Source: Caldicellulosiruptor obsidiansis OB47 (GTDB lineage: Bacteria; Bacillota; Thermoanaerobacteria; Caldicellulosiruptorales; Caldicellulosiruptoraceae). Taken from it: 64,000 nucleotides of DNA. Shown here in pieces: positions 1-30,395 of the stretch (position 1 is the stretch's first letter; each line of letters opens with the position of its first letter). The stretch is taken from assembly GCF_000145215.1 (NCBI RefSeq), contig NC_014392.1, positions 1,806,001 through 1,870,000 on the forward strand. Direction: 5' to 3'. The translations under genes and the position numbers were made by a program. The notes beneath the pieces are model-generated. The model saw only the letters and a program-made list of their open reading frames with translations. It did no database searches and was not told the DNA's origin.

Positions 1-185
1 TTGCGTACCCAACTTGGAAGTTTACCAGACATTTGAAATTCGTAGAACATAATAGCTTTTTGTAAAGCTTCCCCATAGTTAAATGAACCAGCCCGAACCT
101 CCTGCCATGGTTTAACCCCATATACCACTCCTAAAATAAATATGAAGGTTACAACCATTGCAATAATTCTTCTGTAACGCTGCAT
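1..185 (-). CDS. celA: CelA, multidomain GH9/GH48 cellulase (N-terminal fragment)
   Basis: Only the first 61 codons lie in the window; the gene continues past base 1. The translation starts [12 protein letters not shown], has a hydrophobic signal segment (about residues 8-22) and enters the GH9 domain at [20 protein letters not shown], which I recognise as the start of Caldicellulosiruptor CelA. In that family the enzyme is secreted and carries GH9 endoglucanase, CBM3 modules and GH48 exoglucanase; those later domains are outside the window. The start is the ATG at 185, with Shine-Dalgarno AGGAGG eight or more bases upstream. It has its own sigma-A promoter (230-258). The start region is complementary to RNA encoded at 608-648. 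Confidence 0.95.
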
Positions 186-980: not shown

Positions 981-2243
981 CTCGAATAGGTGTAAAGATA
1001 TTTACCACAGCGAAAGAATGTACGAAAACAATAATGAAAAGCCCATAAAAAGAATTGTGGCTGCCTCCCTCCTGTTTGATATAATAAAAAAGTGTAATAT
1101 TCCATTCAAAAGAAACATCAAAAAACTACCAGGATGGGAGGGCAGCCTACTATGAATATTATACCATATCATGAACTCAGAAAAATATCTCCTGAAAAGG
1201 CCAGAGAATTAATTCGAAAAGTATTTGAGGCAAATAACAAAAACATATCAAAAACTGCTAAAATATTAGGTGTATCAAGACACACTGTAAGAAGAGCAGT
1301 ATATGGTCCTGTTGAGGATAAGTCTAGAAAGCCTAAAACTTGCCCTAAAAAACTTTCTTCTGAGCTTGAAAATCTCATTATCCAAGAGGCTAAAAAAACA
1401 GGATTCAGATACAGACGTCTTTCTCTTTATTTATTCAGAAAATATGGCGTTAAAATAAGTGAAAACACGATAAAATCTATTCTCAAAAGAAATAGTGTGC
1501 CGAGAAAGACAAGAAAGACGAAAAAGGGAGAAAGAAGTCTTTACGATTATGAGTCTCTCATCCCATTTTCTGAATTTCAGCTTGATACGAAACATCTTTT
1601 AGACAAAGAAAGCCTCCCAAAAGAAGTATATGAGCACATGATAAAATACAATCTACCGTGTTATGAGTGGAACATGATAGATGTTGCTACAAGGACAAGA
1701 TTTACAGCTTATTCATATGAGCTTTCATCTACTTTTGGTTTTATGTTCATAACATTAGTAGTTTTATGGCTTAGGACACATAATGTAAGAAACCCAATAA
1801 GGATAAGATTAGATAATGGAGCAGAGTTTTGTGGTGGGAGCGAAAAAAAGCTAAAGGAGTGGAATGAGATGTTGTCATTTTTGGGAGTAGAGCTAAATCC
1901 TATTCCACCAAAAGCAAAACACTTGATGGGTATAATTGAAAATTCACATAGAGCAGATGATGAATATTTTTTGATGATTCATGCTGAAAGATGCATAACA
2001 AAAGACGAATTTATGACAAGAGCTCAAAAATGGCAGGATACGTGGAATTTTTATAGACCTCACAATGGTAAAGGAATGAATGGGAGGACACCTTTCGAAA
2101 AGTTTAGAGATTCAAAAATTCTGGTCTCCTCCCATGTATTTCAATTTCCTACTTTACTTCTTGAAGACTTATTAAAGAAAGTGGGGACTTTTTATTCTCT
2201 GTTCTGTAATAAATTAGGTGGTAAATATGTCTTCACCACGTGC
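981..2243 (+). mobile_element. Insertion sequence with rve-type DDE transposase (IS481/IS1202-like)
   Basis: The element is about 1.26 kb, bounded by 16-bp direct repeats. Near its ends are inverted repeats matching 17 of 20 (989-1008 and 2218-2237, both ending in ATATTTACCAC inward). It carries one transposase gene. It lies between the tapirin 2 terminator and the promoter of the celA-side riboswitch. The exact ends are uncertain because the outermost 6-8 bases inside the direct repeats do not match each other. Confidence 0.75.
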
Positions 2244-2294
2244 CTTTTTCATTTTAGGATAGTAGAAAAAACCTTTACATATCCGTGTTACTAA
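1152..2294 (+). CDS. DDE transposase, rve integrase-core type
   Basis: A protein of about 380 residues with an N-terminal helix-turn-helix (NISKTAKILGVSRHTVRRAVYG) and an integrase core. Acidic residues fit a D-D-E triad: FQLDTKHL, IRLDNGAEF and GIIENSHRADDEYF. It would cut and join IS ends during transposition. I chose the ATG at 1152, which has GGGAGGG upstream; an in-frame ATG at 1134 lies before that site. The 3' end reads through the right inverted repeat and the direct repeat, and the stop codon lies inside the tapirin 2 terminator, so the last dozen or so residues come from the host. The IS481/IS1202-like family placement is by general resemblance only. Confidence 0.85.
   Translation: MNIIPYHELRKISPEKARELIRKVFEANNKNISKTAKILGVSRHTVRRAVYGPVEDKSRKPKTCPKKLSSELENLIIQEAKKTGFRYRRLSLYLFRKYGVKISENTIKSILKRNSVPRKTRKTKKGERSLYDYESLIPFSEFQLDTKHLLDKESLPKEVYEHMIKYNLPCYEWNMIDVATRTRFTAYSYELSSTFGFMFITLVVLWLRTHNVRNPIRIRLDNGAEFCGGSEKKLKEWNEMLSFLGVELNPIPPKAKHLMGIIENSHRADDEYFLMIHAERCITKDEFMTRAQKWQDTWNFYRPHNGKGMNGRTPFEKFRDSKILVSSHVFQFPTLLLEDLLKKVGTFYSLFCNKLGGKYVFTTCLFHFRIVEKTFTYPCY
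2244..2259 (+). repeat. Direct repeat flanking the rve-type IS (right copy)
   Basis: Exact 16-bp match of 965-980. It supports a clean insertion between the tapirin 2 terminator and the celA-side leader promoter; before insertion those features would have been about 60 bp apart. Confidence 0.65.
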
Positions 2295-2309: not shown

Positions 2310-4259
2310 TTATCTTACAATAATATTTCTTCTTCTTACACTATATAAAGTATCATTTTGAATTGCATTTGTTTGGTTATATATTGTTGCCGGTGGAACA
2401 TACCCAGTAGTATTTGTTACCTGATTCTGAATGAGTGAACTCGGCGAACCATATATTAATGTTACACCATCAAATGGACTCCCGCCTGAACTATTTATAT
2501 TAAGAGTATTACCTAACGCAATCAATTGACCATTTAATATTCTCGTTCCCACTGAAATAGTAATGTTGTTCCTTGCAAAAACATGCAATTGGAGTGGACT
2601 TGGAACTGGCGAAACGCCCATGCTTGCTAACCTGTTTTGAATCTCAACTTCAATTTCACCTGCATTACAATTTTCTCCAATAACAACAACTTGCGGAGGT
2701 GATTTAGAAATATCTGCAGCACTGTCAATTGAGGCTGGTGGAACTGGATCATGGGGTGTTATCGATGGTATACTTGTACTATTAGGAAAACTAAAATTTC
2801 TTATCTCATTTAAAATTTGTGGCAAGGGCGGATACGGAACTGAAGACACTACATTTATAACCCCACCTGAATTAACAATCCGACTATAGTCAGGCGGCAT
2901 CCTCGTCACAATGGTTGCGCCATTTTCTATTACTAACGTAGTTGGATTGTTCAAAAACTGAATCGAATCGCAATATACTACCGCACCAGATTTTATTGTA
3001 ACTGTCCCTTGATCCTGTATTCTTAACGCACCCCTGATTACTCCTATTTTCTTTATTACAACATCTACCGCATTTGCTGTACTACCTTTAACTATGACAT
3101 TCCCATCGCAGTATAACTCATCAAACTCATATCTCCCTCTACCATATAATTCCGCATTTCCCCCCACGTACGTTATACCCATCTGCAAGCTAATATTTCT
3201 ATCTCCAACACCCGTTCTTCTCAAATTTGACCTAATATAAGTTACATTGTTCACTTTTACATTGTCTTCGCGAACTTGTGGATTACCGTTCACACCCAGT
3301 GATAACTCACCCATTACCACCAAATTATTAATGTCAGTTTGCAAACCGCCGTGTGATTGTATGTCACCGCCTGTATGTATATTCCCGCCTATTATGGTAA
3401 AGTTAACATTTGCCACGAAGCTTCCATTTGTGTATAATGCATAATCAAACAAGTTAAATACTGAGGATGCAGCAGTAGTAGTTGCACTCGATACGCTACT
3501 TTCCAGCCCATTAGGCTTGGTTGCAAGTATTTCAACATCTAACCGCAATGTTCTCTTTATCTCTTTATCTGACGAAGTTCCTGCTCTCTTTTTAGATACA
3601 TCAATGTAAATTGTATATCCATCAGGAAGAGACCCACTTGTCGTACCTGACCATGCATTAACTGTAATATCATCAAGTTCATACCCAGTCAGGCTCTCAT
3701 AATGTGGCTTTATATACAACTCTACTAAGTCAGATAACTTCTTAAACTCCGGCAGCGACAGAGATTCAACCTTTATGGAAGCATCACTACCCACGTCATT
3801 CATAAACCGGCTTACCTCATCCCTTATAATCGCTTTCATACCCTCATACACTTTATCTTCAGCTACATCTCGACTTATCCTCCCATGTCGCAAATCATCC
3901 AATATCTTCCCCGGCTCATAGCTCTCATCTCCCAATAACCATCTCACTCGACCAGGACATATATCTTTTAGTGTCCCATCTCCCTTGTAATAATAACCAT
4001 ACGCTATATTCTTTGCATCCTCTAACAGTTGATTAAAATAATACAAAAACTCCTCTGCTGCACTTTCAGCTCCATAGCCTGTTGCAGATTTCTGATATAT
4101 AGATGTGCTCTGGTTCAGCGATGCTAACACAGCCGACATCGCTCCCAGTAAGACTGTGCTTAAAATAGCAATTATTATTATCACAATAATTAAAGCACTT
4201 CCACTCAAATTTATTTTGAATACTTTTTTACTAAAGGTCTTCCAATTTGTTCTCAACAT
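2310..4259 (-). CDS. Tapirin 2, cellulose-binding surface protein
   Basis: About 649 residues. A short basic N-terminus is followed by one membrane helix (about residues 20-45, GSALIIVIIIIAIL), a globular region to about residue 260, and a C-terminal half rich in short beta turns, Asn, Gly and Val as in the beta-helix of tapirins. Tapirins are Caldicellulosiruptor cell-surface proteins that bind crystalline cellulose and lie just downstream of the pilus operon, which fits the context. I chose the ATG at 4259 (AAGGAAG 8 bases upstream) over the GTG at 4268 that abuts the ribosome site. The gene has its own promoter, c-di-GMP riboswitch and terminator. Codons for about 194 residues are nearly identical to tapirin 1, while the C-terminal half differs. 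Confidence 0.88.
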   Translation of the reverse strand: MLRTNWKTFSKKVFKINLSGSALIIVIIIIAILSTVLLGAMSAVLASLNQSTSIYQKSATGYGAESAAEEFLYYFNQLLEDAKNIAYGYYYKGDGTLKDICPGRVRWLLGDESYEPGKILDDLRHGRISRDVAEDKVYEGMKAIIRDEVSRFMNDVGSDASIKVESLSLPEFKKLSDLVELYIKPHYESLTGYELDDITVNAWSGTTSGSLPDGYTIYIDVSKKRAGTSSDKEIKRTLRLDVEILATKPNGLESSVSSATTTAASSVFNLFDYALYTNGSFVANVNFTIIGGNIHTGGDIQSHGGLQTDINNLVVMGELSLGVNGNPQVREDNVKVNNVTYIRSNLRRTGVGDRNISLQMGITYVGGNAELYGRGRYEFDELYCDGNVIVKGSTANAVDVVIKKIGVIRGALRIQDQGTVTIKSGAVVYCDSIQFLNNPTTLVIENGATIVTRMPPDYSRIVNSGGVINVVSSVPYPPLPQILNEIRNFSFPNSTSIPSITPHDPVPPASIDSAADISKSPPQVVVIGENCNAGEIEVEIQNRLASMGVSPVPSPLQLHVFARNNITISVGTRILNGQLIALGNTLNINSSGGSPFDGVTLIYGSPSSLIQNQVTNTTGYVPPATIYNQTNAIQNDTLYSVRRRNIIVR

Positions 4260-4394
4260 TTCACACACTTCCTTAAACTCTTAACTATAGTTAAATACAA
4301 CGCTAACAATAATTTTCCCTCTTAACTCTCTCCGTACTTCCCACTTGTTCATTAATTCTTTGCTACTAAAACAACAATGGATATAAAAATAAAA

Positions 4395-4416
4395 GCATCT
4401 GGCTGTCGCCAGATGC
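4395..4416 (-). terminator. Intrinsic terminator of the tapirin 2 riboswitch
   Basis: A perfect 9-bp stem GCATCTGGC/GCCAGATGC with a 4-base loop is followed on the minus strand by TTTTATTTTTATA. On that strand the 5' arm is preceded by TGG, so TGGCAT there could instead pair with ATGCCA at the 3' end of aptamer stem P1, a plausible antiterminator. That would make ligand binding favour termination, but this is inference. Confidence 0.85.
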
Positions 4417-4451: not shown

Positions 4452-4554
4452 GGCATATTTTCGGCAGCCTGGCAACCATAGGAAGTTTTACTTCCGACAA
4501 GCCCATGGCTTTGCGCCCCTGCCTTTCGACAGGTTTGCCCTTTCGATATATGCC
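4452..4554 (-). promoter_or_regulatory. Cyclic-di-GMP-I (GEMM) riboswitch of tapirin 2
   Basis: Minus strand: P1 stem GGCATAT (4554-4548) pairs with ATATGCC (4458-4452). Inside are GGGCAAACC, GGGCGCAAAGCCATGGGC, the GGAAG/CTTCC hairpin and GGTTGCCAGGCTGCC, the conserved class I c-di-GMP aptamer. A promoter lies just upstream and a terminator just downstream, then the tapirin 2 ribosome site. The cellulose adhesin should therefore respond to c-di-GMP at the level of transcription. Confidence 0.95.
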
Positions 4555-4587: not shown

Positions 4588-4635
4588 TTATTATCTCACA
4601 AAACTTAGAGTTTTTCAAGCACATTTTTCAGCTCC
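4588..4635 (-). repeat. Target duplication of the IS1634-type element, left copy, part 1
   Basis: The first 48 bases match 8281-8328 exactly. This copy is split at 4636 by the IS4-type element and resumes at 6211. It contains the working promoter of tapirin 2. The last seven bases (4629-4635, CAGCTCC) are repeated at 6211-6217 as the IS4-type target duplication. Confidence 0.9.
4590..4618 (-). promoter_or_regulatory. tapirin 2 promoter
   Basis: Minus strand: TTGAAA at 4618-4613, a 17-base spacer, GATAAT at 4595-4590. The predicted start is about 25 nt before the aptamer. The IS4-type element begins only 18 bp upstream of the -35 box, so any upstream control site has been displaced. An identical copy is at 8283-8311. 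Confidence 0.85.
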
Positions 4636-6210
4636 AACTGCAATTCGGAATTTGAACAACAACTCCTTTTTCATGTTATACTTTACCCAGAATCGAATCT
4701 AAGCGCTGCTTCACTTCTGCGTTGCATGACGCATACAACTGAATAAACTCCAGAAATCCAAAGATACCAAAGTACTGTCCAGCATATACAATAACCGATT
4801 TTGGCCCCTCTTCCACATACTTCTTTGCTGCTACAGGCAAACTTTTTCCCTCACATCTCTTCCCTTCTTCCATATCTCTGTATAGCTGGAAGAACAAATA
4901 TCCTATCAGTACCATCACAATATGAAATGCTATAAAATTGTACTTCGTGCTCTTAAAATCTTCAATCTTCCAAAAATCCTTGATCTGTCGGTAATCTTCC
5001 TCAATCTCAGGCCTTAATTCATATGTCTTGATTATTTGTTTTGCTGTCTTCCCAAGATCTGTAGTCACAATTACAAAATATTCATCCGTCTTTGTGTCAT
5101 GTACTACACACCCATTTATCTGTACGTCATCTTCAGGCTTGGCACTCCTCCAATAACTACCCAGTGATTCTACAAAAGCAATCTCCTGCCTCTTCCTTTT
5201 TTTGTTCGGGTGAGCTTCCCACTTGTTTTCTTCTTTTGCTATCATTACTGCCTGCTCATATGCCTCCATATTGCTTTTCAAAGGAATGTACGTATCCACT
5301 CCTCTCTTTTGTTTTAACTGGTTCATAAGCTCCCTCGAAATAAATCCACGGTCATTAATTAAAATGTCCCCAAATTTTAACATTTTGCTTTTTAGTACCA
5401 TCTCTCGGCTTAATTCAAGGTCATGTACGTTAATACTACCTATTTTGATTTCTTCCAGTATACCATTATCACCTGTAATACCTCGTAGTGTAGACATCTT
5501 ATATCCTCTACGCATTCCATCTTTATCTCTTACCACTTCTGAACCTTCATAATTGCTATTCTCCAGTAATACTTCAAGCTCAGTACAATCAAGAATATGA
5601 ATATCAGGTACTATCTCCTTCTTCGGAAATACATACTCTTGAACATATGTATTATATCCTTGTATTAACTCTTCCACCGTGTATTTCTTTACTATGTTAC
5701 GAAGGGTACCTTCGTCCATCAGCCCTTCTTTCAACCCTCTCTTATTGTCCCATATGTTCCAGCCAATTTCTGATAATGTCTCCGCATTGCTTATAGCAAA
5801 GGGTATATCTGTCAAACTGGTCTTTAGCTTCATCTTCGCTGTAATGGCTAATGTCAGCAATATGTGAAAAGGTATATTCTTATTTGCTGATCGTTTGTCC
5901 AAAAACGCATGCTCTAATAGCTCTATTATCCCTTCTCGTTTCATTTTAAGAATTATTGCATCTATCAAATTAGGAAAGCTTAAATCCGCTGCATCTATTG
6001 CACCTTTTCTAATAGCTTCTAATACTCTTTCTTTGTCTTTTTTACTTATTACCATATAATGAAACCTCGAAATATTATTCTTAAGAATTATCTTAATACT
6101 ATATTCCTATATTGTCCAGTTATGCTATCCCTAATTACTTCTAATATGCTTAAAATAGCAGCTTTAAGCTCTCATTTCCTTTATTTAACTCCAAATTCCG
6201 AATTGAAGTT
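4636..6210 (-). mobile_element. IS4-family insertion sequence
   Basis: A 1575-bp element with terminal inverted repeats matching 18 of 19 (AACTGCAATTCGGAATTTG at 4636, AACTTCAATTCGGAATTTG read inward from 6210) and a 7-bp target duplication CAGCTCC (4629-4635 and 6211-6217). It lies inside one copy of the 134-bp duplication made by the neighbouring IS1634-type element, so it arrived later. Confidence 0.92.
4676..6055 (-). CDS. IS4-family transposase
   Basis: 459 residues. DDE catalytic segments are visible: HILDCTELE (first Asp), ILINDRGFISREL (second Asp) and YELRPEIEEDYRQIK, which fits the IS4 signature Y-x2-R-x3-E-x6-K exactly. The frame is intact, so the element may be active. It is the only gene of the element and fills most of it, ending 40 bp from the left inverted repeat. 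Confidence 0.9.
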   Translation of the reverse strand: MVISKKDKERVLEAIRKGAIDAADLSFPNLIDAIILKMKREGIIELLEHAFLDKRSANKNIPFHILLTLAITAKMKLKTSLTDIPFAISNAETLSEIGWNIWDNKRGLKEGLMDEGTLRNIVKKYTVEELIQGYNTYVQEYVFPKKEIVPDIHILDCTELEVLLENSNYEGSEVVRDKDGMRRGYKMSTLRGITGDNGILEEIKIGSINVHDLELSREMVLKSKMLKFGDILINDRGFISRELMNQLKQKRGVDTYIPLKSNMEAYEQAVMIAKEENKWEAHPNKKRKRQEIAFVESLGSYWRSAKPEDDVQINGCVVHDTKTDEYFVIVTTDLGKTAKQIIKTYELRPEIEEDYRQIKDFWKIEDFKSTKYNFIAFHIVMVLIGYLFFQLYRDMEEGKRCEGKSLPVAAKKYVEEGPKSVIVYAGQYFGIFGFLEFIQLYASCNAEVKQRLDSILGKV

Positions 6211-6303
6211 CAGCTCCTGTATTCAAGTGTAATTAAATTTATTAATTTAAAGCTGCAAAGACTACCTCCACAACCATCTAACTGAGCATTATAATTAACC
6301 ACA
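6211..6303 (-). repeat. Target duplication of the IS1634-type element, left copy, part 2
   Basis: These 93 bases match 8322-8414 exactly, the first 7 of them being the CAGCTCC doubled by the IS4-type insertion. They directly abut the left end of the IS1634-type element. Confidence 0.9.
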
Positions 6304-6464
6304 TTCCCGAGTTTTGCAGCAAAAAATTATTATCAAATTTTAAACAACTTGATTTTACTGAGATAGAAGGTCAAAAAATTTTTAAAATTTTAGCAAATTT
6401 TTATGGCGTTTTCTGGCGAAATGTGGTATAATACTCTTAAAATATTAATTACGAGGTTGCTAAA

Positions 6465-8180
6465 TTGTATCTTAAAAAAAGTACAAACCGTAAAACTGGT
6501 AGAACTTATCTGTCAATCGTAAACAGCTACTATGACAAAGAAACTAAACAATCTCGAACAGCTACCGTCCGCTCCTTAGGTTATCTTGACGAACTTCAAA
6601 AACAATATGATGACCCTATCGCATTTTTCACCGAAGAAGTTCGTAAAATGAACGAAGAATTGAATAAAGAAAATTCTGAGCTCAATCTCAAAATTTCATT
6701 AAATGAAACTATGCCTTTAAATTATAGTGCTCGAAAAAATTTTGGTTATGCAGCTTTAAGTAAAATCTATCATGAGCTTGAAATAGACAAGTTCATAAAA
6801 AATAAACAGCGCTACTCACAAGAAGAATACGATGCTAATAGTATTTTAAAACTTTTGGTATACTCTCGCTTGCTTTTCCCCGCATCAAAAAAGAAAACTT
6901 TTGAAAATAAAGATATTTTCTTTGAAAAATTTGATTTTTCATTAGACGACGTATATCGAAGTTTATCTTTTTTCAATAGACATTGCGAGCAACTTTTACT
7001 TTGGATTCATGAACATATAAAAAAGCTTTATAACCGTAATACAGAGCTTGTTTACTATGATGTCACAAACTATTATTTTGAGATTGACAAACAAGATGAA
7101 CTAAGGAGAAAAGGCGTATCAAAAGAACATCGTCCAGATCCTATTGTACAGATGGGATTGTTTATGGATACAAATGGCATACCTATTACATACAAACTTT
7201 TTCCTGGAAATGCGCCTGATAAAACAACTTTAATTCCTGCCTTGCGAACAATTCAAAAAGAATATTCCTTAGGCAGAATAATTGTAGTAGCAGATAGAGG
7301 ACTAACAACCGGAGATAATATTTGGTATATTTTATCTGCCAAAAATGGATATATACTAAGTTATTCTATCAGAGGTGCTGACAGAGATTTTCAGAAGTAT
7401 GTACTTGATGAAAAAGGATATGTTGAAAAATCCAATGGATTTAAAATAAAGTCAAGACTTTATCCAAGAGAGATTCAAATAACAACGGCAAGTGGGAAGA
7501 AGATGAAAAAAGTAGTAGATGAACTTCAAATAGTCTTTTACAGTCCGGAATATGCAGCAAAAGAAAAACAAGAGAGAGAAGCAGCTTTGATAAAAGCGAT
7601 GGATTTGATTAAAAATCCAGGGAAATACAACAAAGCCACAGCTTATGGTGCAGCCAAGTATGTAAAGAATCTTGCATTTGACCCTAATACAGGTGAGATA
7701 TTGGCAAGTGCTCAGAGGAAGCTATCTTTGGATGAAGAGAAATTAAAAGAAGAAGAAAAATTTGATGGATACTATGCTATTGTTACAAGCGAGTACAAAG
7801 AATCACCGGAGAAGATAATAAACATATATAAAGGACTTTGGAAGATAGAAGAAGCATTCAAGATAACAAAGAACGAGATAGAAAGTAGACCTGTTTATTT
7901 ATCCTTAGAAGAACACATAAATGCTCATTTTTTGACCTGTTTTATATCATTAGTAATTGCAAAAATATTGGAATACAGGTTACAATGGAAATACTGTGTT
8001 ACAGAGATTTTGGAGAGTTTGAGGAAAGCATCATGTAGCCATATTAAAGAAAACTATTATGTATTTGATTTTTTTGATGAAGTACTTGAGGAAATTGGAA
8101 AAGATTTAAACATAGATTTTAGTAAAAAATTTATGAGATTGAAGGAAATAAAAAAAGTTTTAGGTGAGACAAAAAAGTGA
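6465..8180 (+). CDS. IS1634-family transposase
   Basis: 571 residues, start TTG at 6465 with GAGG upstream and a TATAAT at 6426-6431. The DDE segments are YYDVTNYYFEI, IIVVADRGLTTGDN, and the C-terminal YKGLWKIEEAFKITK with the catalytic Glu, typical of IS1634-type proteins. The reading frame is intact. A terminator follows. It runs opposite to the tapirins, and transcription from the duplicated promoter at 8283-8311 would run antisense to it. Confidence 0.9.
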   Translation: MYLKKSTNRKTGRTYLSIVNSYYDKETKQSRTATVRSLGYLDELQKQYDDPIAFFTEEVRKMNEELNKENSELNLKISLNETMPLNYSARKNFGYAALSKIYHELEIDKFIKNKQRYSQEEYDANSILKLLVYSRLLFPASKKKTFENKDIFFEKFDFSLDDVYRSLSFFNRHCEQLLLWIHEHIKKLYNRNTELVYYDVTNYYFEIDKQDELRRKGVSKEHRPDPIVQMGLFMDTNGIPITYKLFPGNAPDKTTLIPALRTIQKEYSLGRIIVVADRGLTTGDNIWYILSAKNGYILSYSIRGADRDFQKYVLDEKGYVEKSNGFKIKSRLYPREIQITTASGKKMKKVVDELQIVFYSPEYAAKEKQEREAALIKAMDLIKNPGKYNKATAYGAAKYVKNLAFDPNTGEILASAQRKLSLDEEKLKEEEKFDGYYAIVTSEYKESPEKIINIYKGLWKIEEAFKITKNEIESRPVYLSLEEHINAHFLTCFISLVIAKILEYRLQWKYCVTEILESLRKASCSHIKENYYVFDFFDEVLEEIGKDLNIDFSKKFMRLKEIKKVLGETKK

Positions 8181-8210
8181 TTTTTCACTATAACTTTTTG
8201 ATAAAACTTA

Positions 8211-8252
8211 AATAGCCTACAATCCTTTATTCCCAATGGATTGCAGGCTATT
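8211..8252. terminator. Terminator after the IS1634-type transposase
   Basis: A 15-bp stem (8211-8225 with 8238-8252, one mismatch that becomes G-U on the minus strand) is followed by a T-run on the plus strand. It could also stop transcription entering the element from the right. Confidence 0.75.
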
Positions 8253-8280
8253 TTTATTCCAATCATCTGCAAAAGTCAGG

Positions 8281-8414
8281 TTATTATCTCACAAAACTTA
8301 GAGTTTTTCAAGCACATTTTTCAGCTCCTGTATTCAAGTGTAATTAAATTTATTAATTTAAAGCTGCAAAGACTACCTCCACAACCATCTAACTGAGCAT
8401 TATAATTAACCACA
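8281..8414 (-). repeat. Target duplication of the IS1634-type element, intact right copy
   Basis: 134 bp, identical over its whole length to the split left copy. It shows the empty site of the later IS4-type insertion (CAGCTCCTG uninterrupted). It contains a second copy of the tapirin 2 promoter (TTGAAA at 8311-8306, GATAAT at 8288-8283, minus strand), now pointing into the transposon. Confidence 0.92.
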
Positions 8415-8454
8415 CTCGTCATTGTTTTAAATAAACTTATTATCCTCACATTTA

Positions 8455-10383
8455 CTACTTTATGACAATGTTTCGTCTTAAAATGTTATATAAAGTTTTT
8501 CTTCCAACTGCATCAGCCTCCGTATATATTATTTGAGATGGTTGAATACCTGTATTATTCTCAATGTCTTGTTGTATGGAAGGACTTGGCGTTTGATACT
8601 TTAGCGTAAGCCCAGCATATGGATTCTCCAAGCAGTTTACATCTAATGCATTACCAAGCGAGATTATCGAACCATTTAAAATAGTCATACCACCACCCAC
8701 GAATGTAATGTTGCCCCGTGAAATTAAATGCAGCTGGAGTGTTGAGAAATCAACAGTGGGTAAACTTAATCTACCCAATATTTCTAACCTTGCTTCATTA
8801 TCGTTAATAAAGGATTCACCATATATTACTATCTGCGGGGGTGTTTGAGTTATGTCTGCAGTGCTGCCAAGCTGAGGACTACCAACACTATCAGCTGGCA
8901 ATGGTGTTATTAGCAAACCACTGGTATAATCCCGATTTCTTATTTCATCTATCTCAGCTGGCGTAGGTGGATATGAAAAAGAAGAAGAATACGAAATTGT
9001 CCCACCATTATTTTGTATGGATATTATCGTGGATGCATCGGGAGTTGTTGCTACATATAATTTTGCTCCATTTTCAAGAATCAAGCGGGAACCATTGCGT
9101 ACTACCAATGAATTGCAGTAAACCGCACTGTTGCTTTTTAACGTTACTGTTGCTCCATCAATAACCTCAAGTGTCCCTCTTATACTTGCTAACGCTGAAA
9201 CTTCCATGTTCACACCCGGTCCAGCTAGCTTTACATTGCTATCAGAAAACAATTGTACAAACTTATAGCTACCGGCCCCATATAATTGCATTTCCTGACC
9301 AACATAAATTGTTTTTGCATCAATATTAGTTGAGCGTGGGGATATCCTATTTGCTTTCAAACTTTTTTCTACATAAATTATATTCCTTACAACTATATTG
9401 TTGTCACGACATCGCGAGTCACTATCTTGATTTATCATCATCTCACCTTTTGATATCAAATTGTCAATATTAAACACCGCACCACCGTGTATCGTTAGGT
9501 CACCACCTGAATACACACTTCCATTTTCGACAGTAAGGTTTTTGTTAGTATTAAGAGCACCCTTTGAAAATATTGCATAATCAAGCGGTGATGAAGGAAC
9601 AGGCGTTGGTGATGGATTCAAAATTAAGTTCACTGAACTTCCACTGTCATCAGCTATTCTAACATCTAATCGCAATGCTCTCTTTACCTCTTTATCTGAC
9701 GAAGTTCCTGCTCTCTTTTTAGATACATCAATGTAAATTGTATATCCATCAGGAAGAGACCCACTTGTCGTACCTGACCATGCATTAACTGTGATATCAT
9801 CAAGTTCATACCCAGTCAGGCTCTCATAATGTGGCTTTATATACAACTCTACTAAGTCAGATAACTTCTTAAACTCCGGCAGCGACAGAGATTCAACCTT
9901 TATGGAAGCATCACTACCCACGTCATTCATAAACCGGCTTACCTCATCCCTTATAATCGCTTTCATACCCTCATACACTTTGTCTTCAGCTACATCTCGA
10001 CTTATCCTCCCATGTCGCAAATCATCCAATATCTTCCCCGGCTCATAGCTCTCATCTCCCAATAACCATCTCACTCGACCAGGACATATATCTTTTAGTG
10101 TCCCATCTCCCTTGTAATAATAACCATACGCTATATTCTTTGCATCCTCTAACAGTTGATTAAAATAATACAAAAACTCCTCTGCTGCACTTTCAGCTCC
10201 ATAGCCTGTTGCAGATTTCTGATATATAGATGTGCTCTGGTTCAGCGATGCTAACACAGCCGACATCGTCCCCAGCAATATTGTGCTCAGAACAGCAATA
10301 ACTATTATCACAACAATCAAAACAGATCCGTCAACCTTTTTAATAAACATCCTGTCTTTTAAACAACTAATTTTTTCCAGCAT
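8455..10383 (-). CDS. Tapirin 1, cellulose-binding surface protein
   Basis: 642 residues with the tapirin layout: short basic N-terminus, a membrane helix at about residues 19-42 (GSVLIVVIIVIAVL), an alpha-rich region, and a C-terminal half of repetitive short strands suggesting a beta-helix. It binds cellulose by family knowledge. It starts 7 bases after the stop of the last minor pilin and looks like the final gene of the pilus operon, whereas tapirin 2 has its own riboswitch. A 581-bp segment (9688-10268) differs from tapirin 2 (3561-4141) at only two bases, while the rest of the two genes diverges strongly. No clear terminator follows. Confidence 0.88.
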   Translation of the reverse strand: MLEKISCLKDRMFIKKVDGSVLIVVIIVIAVLSTILLGTMSAVLASLNQSTSIYQKSATGYGAESAAEEFLYYFNQLLEDAKNIAYGYYYKGDGTLKDICPGRVRWLLGDESYEPGKILDDLRHGRISRDVAEDKVYEGMKAIIRDEVSRFMNDVGSDASIKVESLSLPEFKKLSDLVELYIKPHYESLTGYELDDITVNAWSGTTSGSLPDGYTIYIDVSKKRAGTSSDKEVKRALRLDVRIADDSGSSVNLILNPSPTPVPSSPLDYAIFSKGALNTNKNLTVENGSVYSGGDLTIHGGAVFNIDNLISKGEMMINQDSDSRCRDNNIVVRNIIYVEKSLKANRISPRSTNIDAKTIYVGQEMQLYGAGSYKFVQLFSDSNVKLAGPGVNMEVSALASIRGTLEVIDGATVTLKSNSAVYCNSLVVRNGSRLILENGAKLYVATTPDASTIISIQNNGGTISYSSSFSYPPTPAEIDEIRNRDYTSGLLITPLPADSVGSPQLGSTADITQTPPQIVIYGESFINDNEARLEILGRLSLPTVDFSTLQLHLISRGNITFVGGGMTILNGSIISLGNALDVNCLENPYAGLTLKYQTPSPSIQQDIENNTGIQPSQIIYTEADAVGRKTLYNILRRNIVIK

Positions 10384-30211: not shown

Positions 30212-30229
30212 ACAAAAACTCCCTTCTTG

Positions 30230-30369
30230 AGGCTTACGGGATTAGCTGACGGGTTCGGGACAAGAAGGCTATCCCTACGGCAAGTTCTTTCTTGCCGATT
30301 CACCCCAATGGCTACTGTGGGTCTCCCGCTGTCTGAGCAATTTTTACAATTTGCTCAGACATTCAGCCT
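30230..30369 (-). promoter_or_regulatory. Cyclic-di-AMP (ydaO-yuaA) riboswitch
   Basis: Minus strand: P1 AGGCT (30369-30365) pairs with AGCCT (30234-30230). Inside are the conserved stretches AGCGGGAGACCCA, TTGGGGTGAATC, GTAGGGATAGCC and CCGAACCCGTCAGCTAA, which match the ydaO element. A variable hairpin sits near the 5' end. It lies directly before the NlpC/P60 gene, a typical target tied to osmotic and wall homeostasis. No separate terminator was found, so the control mechanism is not clear. Confidence 0.93.
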
Positions 30370-30395
30370 ATTAAGTTTATCATTTTGATGTTATT

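Follow-up and report, generated by a model that had tools for sequence, protein, structure and literature searches.

The window, a stretch of 64,000 nucleotides of the Caldicellulosiruptor obsidiansis OB47 genome (G000:C1:1806001-1870000 within 2.53 Mb, G000 being its own genome), carries two tapirin genes on the minus strand and, between them, an insertion sequence (IS) of 1975 bp, hereafter the outer element (Table 1). Its transposase matched the IS1634 family model NF033559 of NCBIfam over residues 31-551 (401.7 bits against a cut-off of 100), and the two flanking genes scored above the cut-off of the tapirin model. The first-pass annotation had proposed both identities, and both were borne out. 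The size of the outer element and its ends (CCCGAG and CCTGAC) also fit the family table, which gives 1500-2000 bp and ends that begin with C (PMC2266710). The tips read CCCGAGTTTTGCAG at the left and ...CTGCAAAAGTCAGG at the right; the left one was placed at 6306 from other copies of the same element, and the copies and fragments in G000, G001 and G010 begin with CC(C/A)GAG and finish with AGTCAGG. The outer element departs from the family norm of 5-6 bp direct repeats, with 136 bp in its own case and 11-589 bp in its clade. Membership in the family therefore rests on the transposase, since PMC2266710 allows IS1549 and IS1634 as exceptions in repeat length.

Table 1. Features of the tapirin locus, in window positions
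Feature	Position	Strand	Remarks
Tapirin 2	2310..4268	-	NF051896, 896.5 bits (cut-off 600)
Hairpin of the tapirin 2 leader	4386..4416	-	Intrinsic-terminator-like; conserved in the six-genome alignment
c-di-GMP-I-GGC riboswitch (predicted), tapirin 2 leader	4459..4548	-	Rfam RF03167, 69.6 bits (gathering cut-off 59)
Left copy of the 136-bp duplication, piece 1	4588..4635		Gene side; holds the tapirin 2 promoter
Tapirin 2 promoter (predicted), gene-side copy	4590..4618	-	TTGAAA (4618-4613), 17 bp, GATAAT (4595-4590)
Left short repeat of inner element	4627..4635		TTCAGCTCC
Inner IS4-like element	4636..6208	-	Inserted into the left repeat copy; near-identical second copy elsewhere in G000
Inner-element transposase gene	4676..6055	-	459 amino acids; same direction as tapirin 2
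Right short repeat of inner element	6209..6217		TTCAGCTCC
Left copy of the 136-bp duplication, piece 2	6218..6305		Separated from piece 1 by the inner element
Outer IS1634-family element	6306..8280	+	1975 bp; NF033559 match; tips set by copies in G000, G001 and G010
Outer-element transposase gene	6465..8180	+	571 amino acids
Hairpin at right end of outer element	8210..8253		-25 kcal/mol; terminator-like for transposase mRNA and spare-promoter transcripts
Right copy of the 136-bp duplication	8281..8416		Ancestral base kept at the mismatch
Spare promoter copy (predicted)	8283..8311	-	-35 at 8306-8311, -10 at 8283-8288; points into the right end of the outer element
Tapirin 1	8455..10383	-	NF051896, 902.3 bits (cut-off 600)

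We found that the outer element is flanked by a direct repeat of 136 bp, made up of 134 identical bases, one substitution (position 135) and one further match. The flanks had earlier been described as exact copies of 134 bp; the run of identity was correct, the true length is 136 bp with one mismatch, and the left copy is cut into two pieces by a second element. This inner element is flanked on each side by the 9-bp repeat TTCAGCTCC, and its second copy, at G000:C1:1470276-1471846, shows 1 difference in 1571. Its transposase reached 84.8 bits with the best NCBIfam model, transpos_IS4_1, under the cut-off of 115, and we therefore call the element IS4-like only. Just one of the two long-repeat copies is split, indicating that the inner element arrived second.

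Sister genomes preserve the site as it was before the insertion. The 174 bases at 8281-8454 are matched in 4 of the 12 genomes of the genus, namely the genome itself, G011, G009 and G002, and in the latter three the orthologous site is a single copy, unbroken across the insertion point. G007 and G004, with two tandem tapirins each, also have a single, uninterrupted spacer, which is more diverged. Since these sister genomes hold one uninterrupted copy, the 136-bp repeat is a true target duplication. The first-pass annotation had claimed as much and had suggested a genome comparison for the empty site, naming sister strains with both copies and no IS as the observation that would speak against it; the empty site was found, and two copies without the IS were seen in none of the five sister genomes. 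The base at the mismatch in close relatives is that of the right copy, indicating that the left copy changed after the insertion. We regard it as extremely improbable that the repeat is older than the IS, as a tandem duplication, or came from later recombination, with the IS itself having made a short duplication. IS copies of these genomes do recombine with one another (L112 and L114, see below), but the five sister genomes carry one copy of the repeat, and at dozens of unrelated sites such repeats abut both tips exactly. As a control for chance, left and right flanks of different copies were paired and an abutting repeat of at least 8 bp was sought; 2 of 2862 pairings had one, both from one reciprocal pair of rearranged copies.

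Each copy of the repeat contains TTGAAA-17-GATAAT, as the first-pass annotation had noted, which we predict to be a sigmaA promoter of tapirin 2 from its consensus match and conserved position. The hexamers are identical in G011 and G009, while G002 and G007 have CTGAAA-17-GTTAAT and G004 has TTGCAA-17-ATTAAT at the same place. The position of the promoter and its distance to the riboswitch are thus constant in six genomes, and the hexamers vary. The riboswitch, conserved in the same six genomes, is predicted by its Rfam family score to bind cyclic di-GMP (c-di-GMP). From this anatomy and its conservation, we infer that the riboswitch-controlled transcript of tapirin 2 naturally starts from the promoter that was duplicated. 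The right tip of the outer element lies 2 bp downstream of the -10, and the inner element starts 17 bp upstream of the gene-side -35. The earlier claim that the duplication preserved tapirin 2 expression holds for the place of the promoter and its distance to the riboswitch; that expression itself was kept is what this arrangement suggests. The promoter is spared relative to the cut at the right tip, and a short duplication at the other cut would leave it whole too.

Tapirin 2 might also be driven mainly by read-through from the co-directional transposase gene of the inner element. This gene ends at 4676 on the tapirin 2 strand, inspection by eye showed no obvious terminator up to the end of the element, and the riboswitch leader would still act on such transcripts. 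The native promoter, however, is intact at 17 bp from the inner element; the two sources are compatible, and we consider it rather unlikely that read-through is the main one.

The -10 of the spare promoter copy lies 2 bp outside the outer element, and its transcript would start inside. It had been described as pointing antisense into the transposase gene; the direction is right, but before the gene a transcript would reach a conserved hairpin, which has a U-rich tail on the antisense strand. This hairpin was present in 12 of 12 aligned subclade right ends, with two-sided changes at a few pairs, and it probably makes antisense transcription less of a danger to the transposase gene. Three things had escaped the first-pass annotation: the second IS nested in the repeat, the riboswitch of the tapirin 2 leader and the wider occurrence of promoter targeting.

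Further observations concern the tapirin genes and their surroundings. Tapirin 1 and tapirin 2 share a stretch of 670 bp with 97% DNA identity, and the G002 pair one of 669 bp with 99.9%, as if the 5′ part of the pair were kept alike by gene conversion within each genome. The tapirin 2 gene of G009 (G009:C1:884189-888298, L039) consists of three pieces, the first and second about 2 kb apart, and looks interrupted. A scan of the named genomes gave no match for tapirin 2 relatives. An IS481-like transposase gene, below its family cut-off, is located at 1134-2294 (+), with 15 bp between its end and that of tapirin 2; G011 has this stretch too. A second predicted c-di-GMP-I-GGC riboswitch, followed by a hairpin, lies at 792-881 (-; 69.3 bits), upstream of an open reading frame at 1-185 (-) that runs off the window start. 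The first residues of this frame resemble those of a secreted glycoside hydrolase family 9 (GH9) cellulase like CelA; if it does encode one, a single riboswitch class would precede both tapirin 2 and a cellulase. A predicted cyclic di-AMP riboswitch is found at 30216-30378 (-; 91.1 bits).

The long duplication proved to be a trait of a clade. IS1634 copies were gathered from the class and the phylum, 76 of 249 phylum genomes having the family at the threshold used. Tips were fixed by pattern and were readable at 54 of 59 class loci and 57 of 60 phylum loci; those with unrecognisable tips were dropped (L158-L161 and L165 in the class; L234, L235 and L243 in the phylum), save that L160 was kept in the length table at 126 bp, and the L234 site, re-fetched as L277, showed a 171-bp repeat. 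An abutting repeat of 11-589 bp was found at 36 of the 54 class loci, and one of 3-10 bp at none. Altogether, 64 of 88 long-clade copies (the window and L160 included) have an abutting repeat of 11-589 bp, with a median of 133; the values for L213 (108) and L193 (145) include two mismatches each. Among the other IS1634 elements, 23 of 25 copies have repeats of 4-7 bp and 2 have none, three of the 23 values (L205, L209 and L229) being read at doubtful tips. At 22 extra loci read without recourse to tips, 17 had a repeat of at least 15 bp, all nearest long-type elements; L265, L271, L274, L278 and L290 showed none of that length, L271 and L278 being nearest short-duplication elements. In a tree of 33 transposases (23 long, 10 short), a single branch separates the long ones from the rest (support 99/98; 99% of bootstrap trees). 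In one IS1634 transposase clade, then, duplications are as a rule long and variable (11-589 bp), and in the others sampled they measure 4-7 bp, so that the two kinds of transposase can be compared directly.

Two points count against so simple a division: 24 of the 88 long-clade copies lack an abutting repeat, and several very long branches occur among the short-duplication rows of the tree. Two of the 24, L112 and L114 of G032, have exchanged flanks: pairing the left flank of one with the right flank of the other restores repeats of 175 and 276 bp, which points to recombination between the two copies. The G010 copy (L042) also has no abutting repeat; its left flank is common to all 12 genomes, with remnants in several, and no clean empty site was readable there. 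An exponential fit of the repeat lengths was uninformative (p 0.11). In clade B (L138-L166, tips CTTGACTTTGTCA; 37 matches in G009), duplications reach 589 bp and both ends prefer a T-run; on either side, T is the last base in 22 of 24.

Many right flanks in the window's subclade (A) read TTGACA...TATAA up to the tip. The idea of promoter targeting came from this subclade; the sister subclades C and D served as its test. Empty sites were rebuilt, and the highest-scoring promoter whose -10 fell near the right tip was compared with random points in the same locus, using general consensus weights that were not fitted to these data. L213, whose repeat had been misplaced, was left out of the final tests, and the repeat-bearing L262, L268, L270, L272, L273, L275 and L291, with displaced tips or outside the chosen sets, stood apart from them. 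Right tips scored at p<0.05 in 14 of 24 cases in subclade A (Fisher 3.6e-16), 3 of 5 in C (2.8e-5) and 6 of 14 in D (2.7e-9), or 22 of 42 for the three subclades minus the window (7.8e-26). There was no excess at the right tips of the long-duplication clades B, E and FG (2 of 30; Fisher 0.18), and left tips reached this level in 0 of 24 (A), 0 of 5 (C) and 1 of 14 (D), that is, 1 of 43 in all. An early scan with loose windows, before the empty sites were rebuilt, had given a weaker signal (8 of 32 vs 5%). The cut commonly falls at TATAA^T in subclades A and C, and at TATAAT^ in D, the caret marking it.

A plain consensus count at fixed offset, which is independent of the weights, was then compared with intergenic points upstream of co-directional genes, and gave Fisher values of 5e-10 in A (23 sites, without the window), 4e-6 in C (5) and 2e-10 in D (14). 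The -35 alone at spacer 17 was likewise in excess (2e-5, 1e-5 and 3e-6 in A, C and D). The right-tip point was intergenic in 36 of 43 cases, 35 of these 36 with a co-directional gene downstream. Sister genomes also bear on a second site: where G001 has a 35-bp repeat, the empty sites of G011 and G003 read TTGACA-17/18-TAxAAT without interruption. The repeats in A, C and D are all at least 30 bp, and in each of the 20 promoter-like cases the repeat includes the -35. In these subclades, the right end prefers sites with a -10 and a -35.

Several results argue against aim at promoters as such. Of the A, C and D insertions, 20 of 43 fell short of p<0.05; the median -35 p in A was 0.47, and the -35 boxes, though in excess, gave less signal than the -10 boxes. 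At equal quality of the -10, the -35 contributed a modest further signal (p 0.04, 0.05 and 0.12 on 6, 2 and 7 sites), and the window tip itself, 2 bp past GATAAT, is away from the commonest offset. Because so many sites are unlike promoters and the -35 in A is weak, the aim may be TATAAT-like sequence, with real promoters over-represented. In its strict form, this would mean that the right end prefers AT-rich, TATAAT-like sequence, and that promoters are struck as its carriers while the promoter apparatus goes unrecognised. We take this as a real possibility, though not the probable one. The -10 signal far above the -35 signal and the roughly half of the sites with no good -35 speak for it, as do the CREE elements of Neisseria, which have a -10-like target with no known promoter recognition (PMC9330008). 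The excess of correctly spaced -35 boxes in all three subclades speaks against it, as does the excess that persists over intergenic points upstream of genes.

The pattern could also reflect selection and not targeting, if insertions occurred anywhere and the survivors were those that left genes and promoters working; promoter-sparing intergenic insertions would indeed be near neutral. Clade B, however, has equally long repeats and no promoter enrichment, its right-tip point being intergenic in 6 of 20 cases and inside predicted genes in 14 of 20. Moreover, a tip position held to one or two bases of the -10 (offset -5 or -6) is not what selection would produce, and we consider this explanation quite improbable.

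Taken together, the sequence comparisons make it likely that the window records a two-step event, produced by an element of a long-duplication clade whose subclade aims its right end at a sigmaA-type -10 box. In the first step, the right end of the outer element would have been joined to the tapirin 2 promoter region at a point 2 bp past the -10, and the left end to the opposite strand 136 bp upstream, so that the two ends would cut opposite strands far apart and with one polarity. Gap filling would then have copied the 136 bp, promoter included, and tapirin 2 would thereby have kept its promoter, c-di-GMP riboswitch and terminator. The spare promoter would now fire into the outer element, where the conserved hairpin should stop its transcript. 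In the second step, the IS4-like element entered the copy on the gene side, 17 bp ahead of its -35. One IS1634 transposase is reported to bind the replication clamp (PMC5371812), which could supply the gap filling.

Somewhat more tentatively, we favour a general form of this proposal, in which a clade of IS1634 elements recognises sigmaA promoters as its target, with the right end placed at the -10 and the left end on the other strand, 30-480 bp upstream. The promoter would be copied rather than destroyed because, in every copy tested, the second cut lay 30 bp or more upstream. The host would retain a complete promoter copy, the element would settle without silencing and with a terminator facing the spare promoter, and the long duplication may be what makes promoters safe to invade. 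For this putative mode we propose the name promoter-targeting, promoter-sparing insertion. If it is real, surveys of gene loss would miss such insertions almost entirely, although each would leave a spare promoter behind; the promoter spared in the window would control a cellulose-adhesion gene that lies behind a c-di-GMP riboswitch.

The first-pass annotation had stated that long target duplications are known for this family. This is true of IS1549 of Mycobacterium smegmatis and IS1634 of Mycoplasma mycoides, which, like the window element, have long and variable repeats (8-514 bp), but not of the family norm of 5-6 bp (PMC2266710). In 2008 the long duplications of these two elements had no mechanistic model, and the account of them in that source, unlike our findings in the window subclade, mentions no promoter preference (PMC2266710). 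ISPfe2 of Paracoccus (PMC3281130) and ISGka5 of Geobacillus (PMC8024623), also of the IS1634 family, differ in having 6-bp direct repeats. The miniature CREE elements of Neisseria resemble the subclade in that their target duplications are -10-hexamer-like, but these are 2-5 bp long and the whole promoter is not copied (PMC9330008). Within the accessible passages of the open-licence literature, we found no report of promoter targeting by IS1634 or other insertion sequences. If our reading is correct, the promoter-aimed subclade would be a bacterial counterpart of retrotransposons whose insertions go to safe places close to transcription starts. As proposed for the window subclade, the Ty1/Ty3 and Tf1 retrotransposons insert next to transcription starts and spare the host. 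They differ in being eukaryotic and guided by transcription factors and, to our knowledge, in making no long promoter duplication. Tf1 inserts beside transcription starts in a host-sparing manner (PMC5371812), and the IS1634 subclade would avoid harm simply, by copying the promoter.

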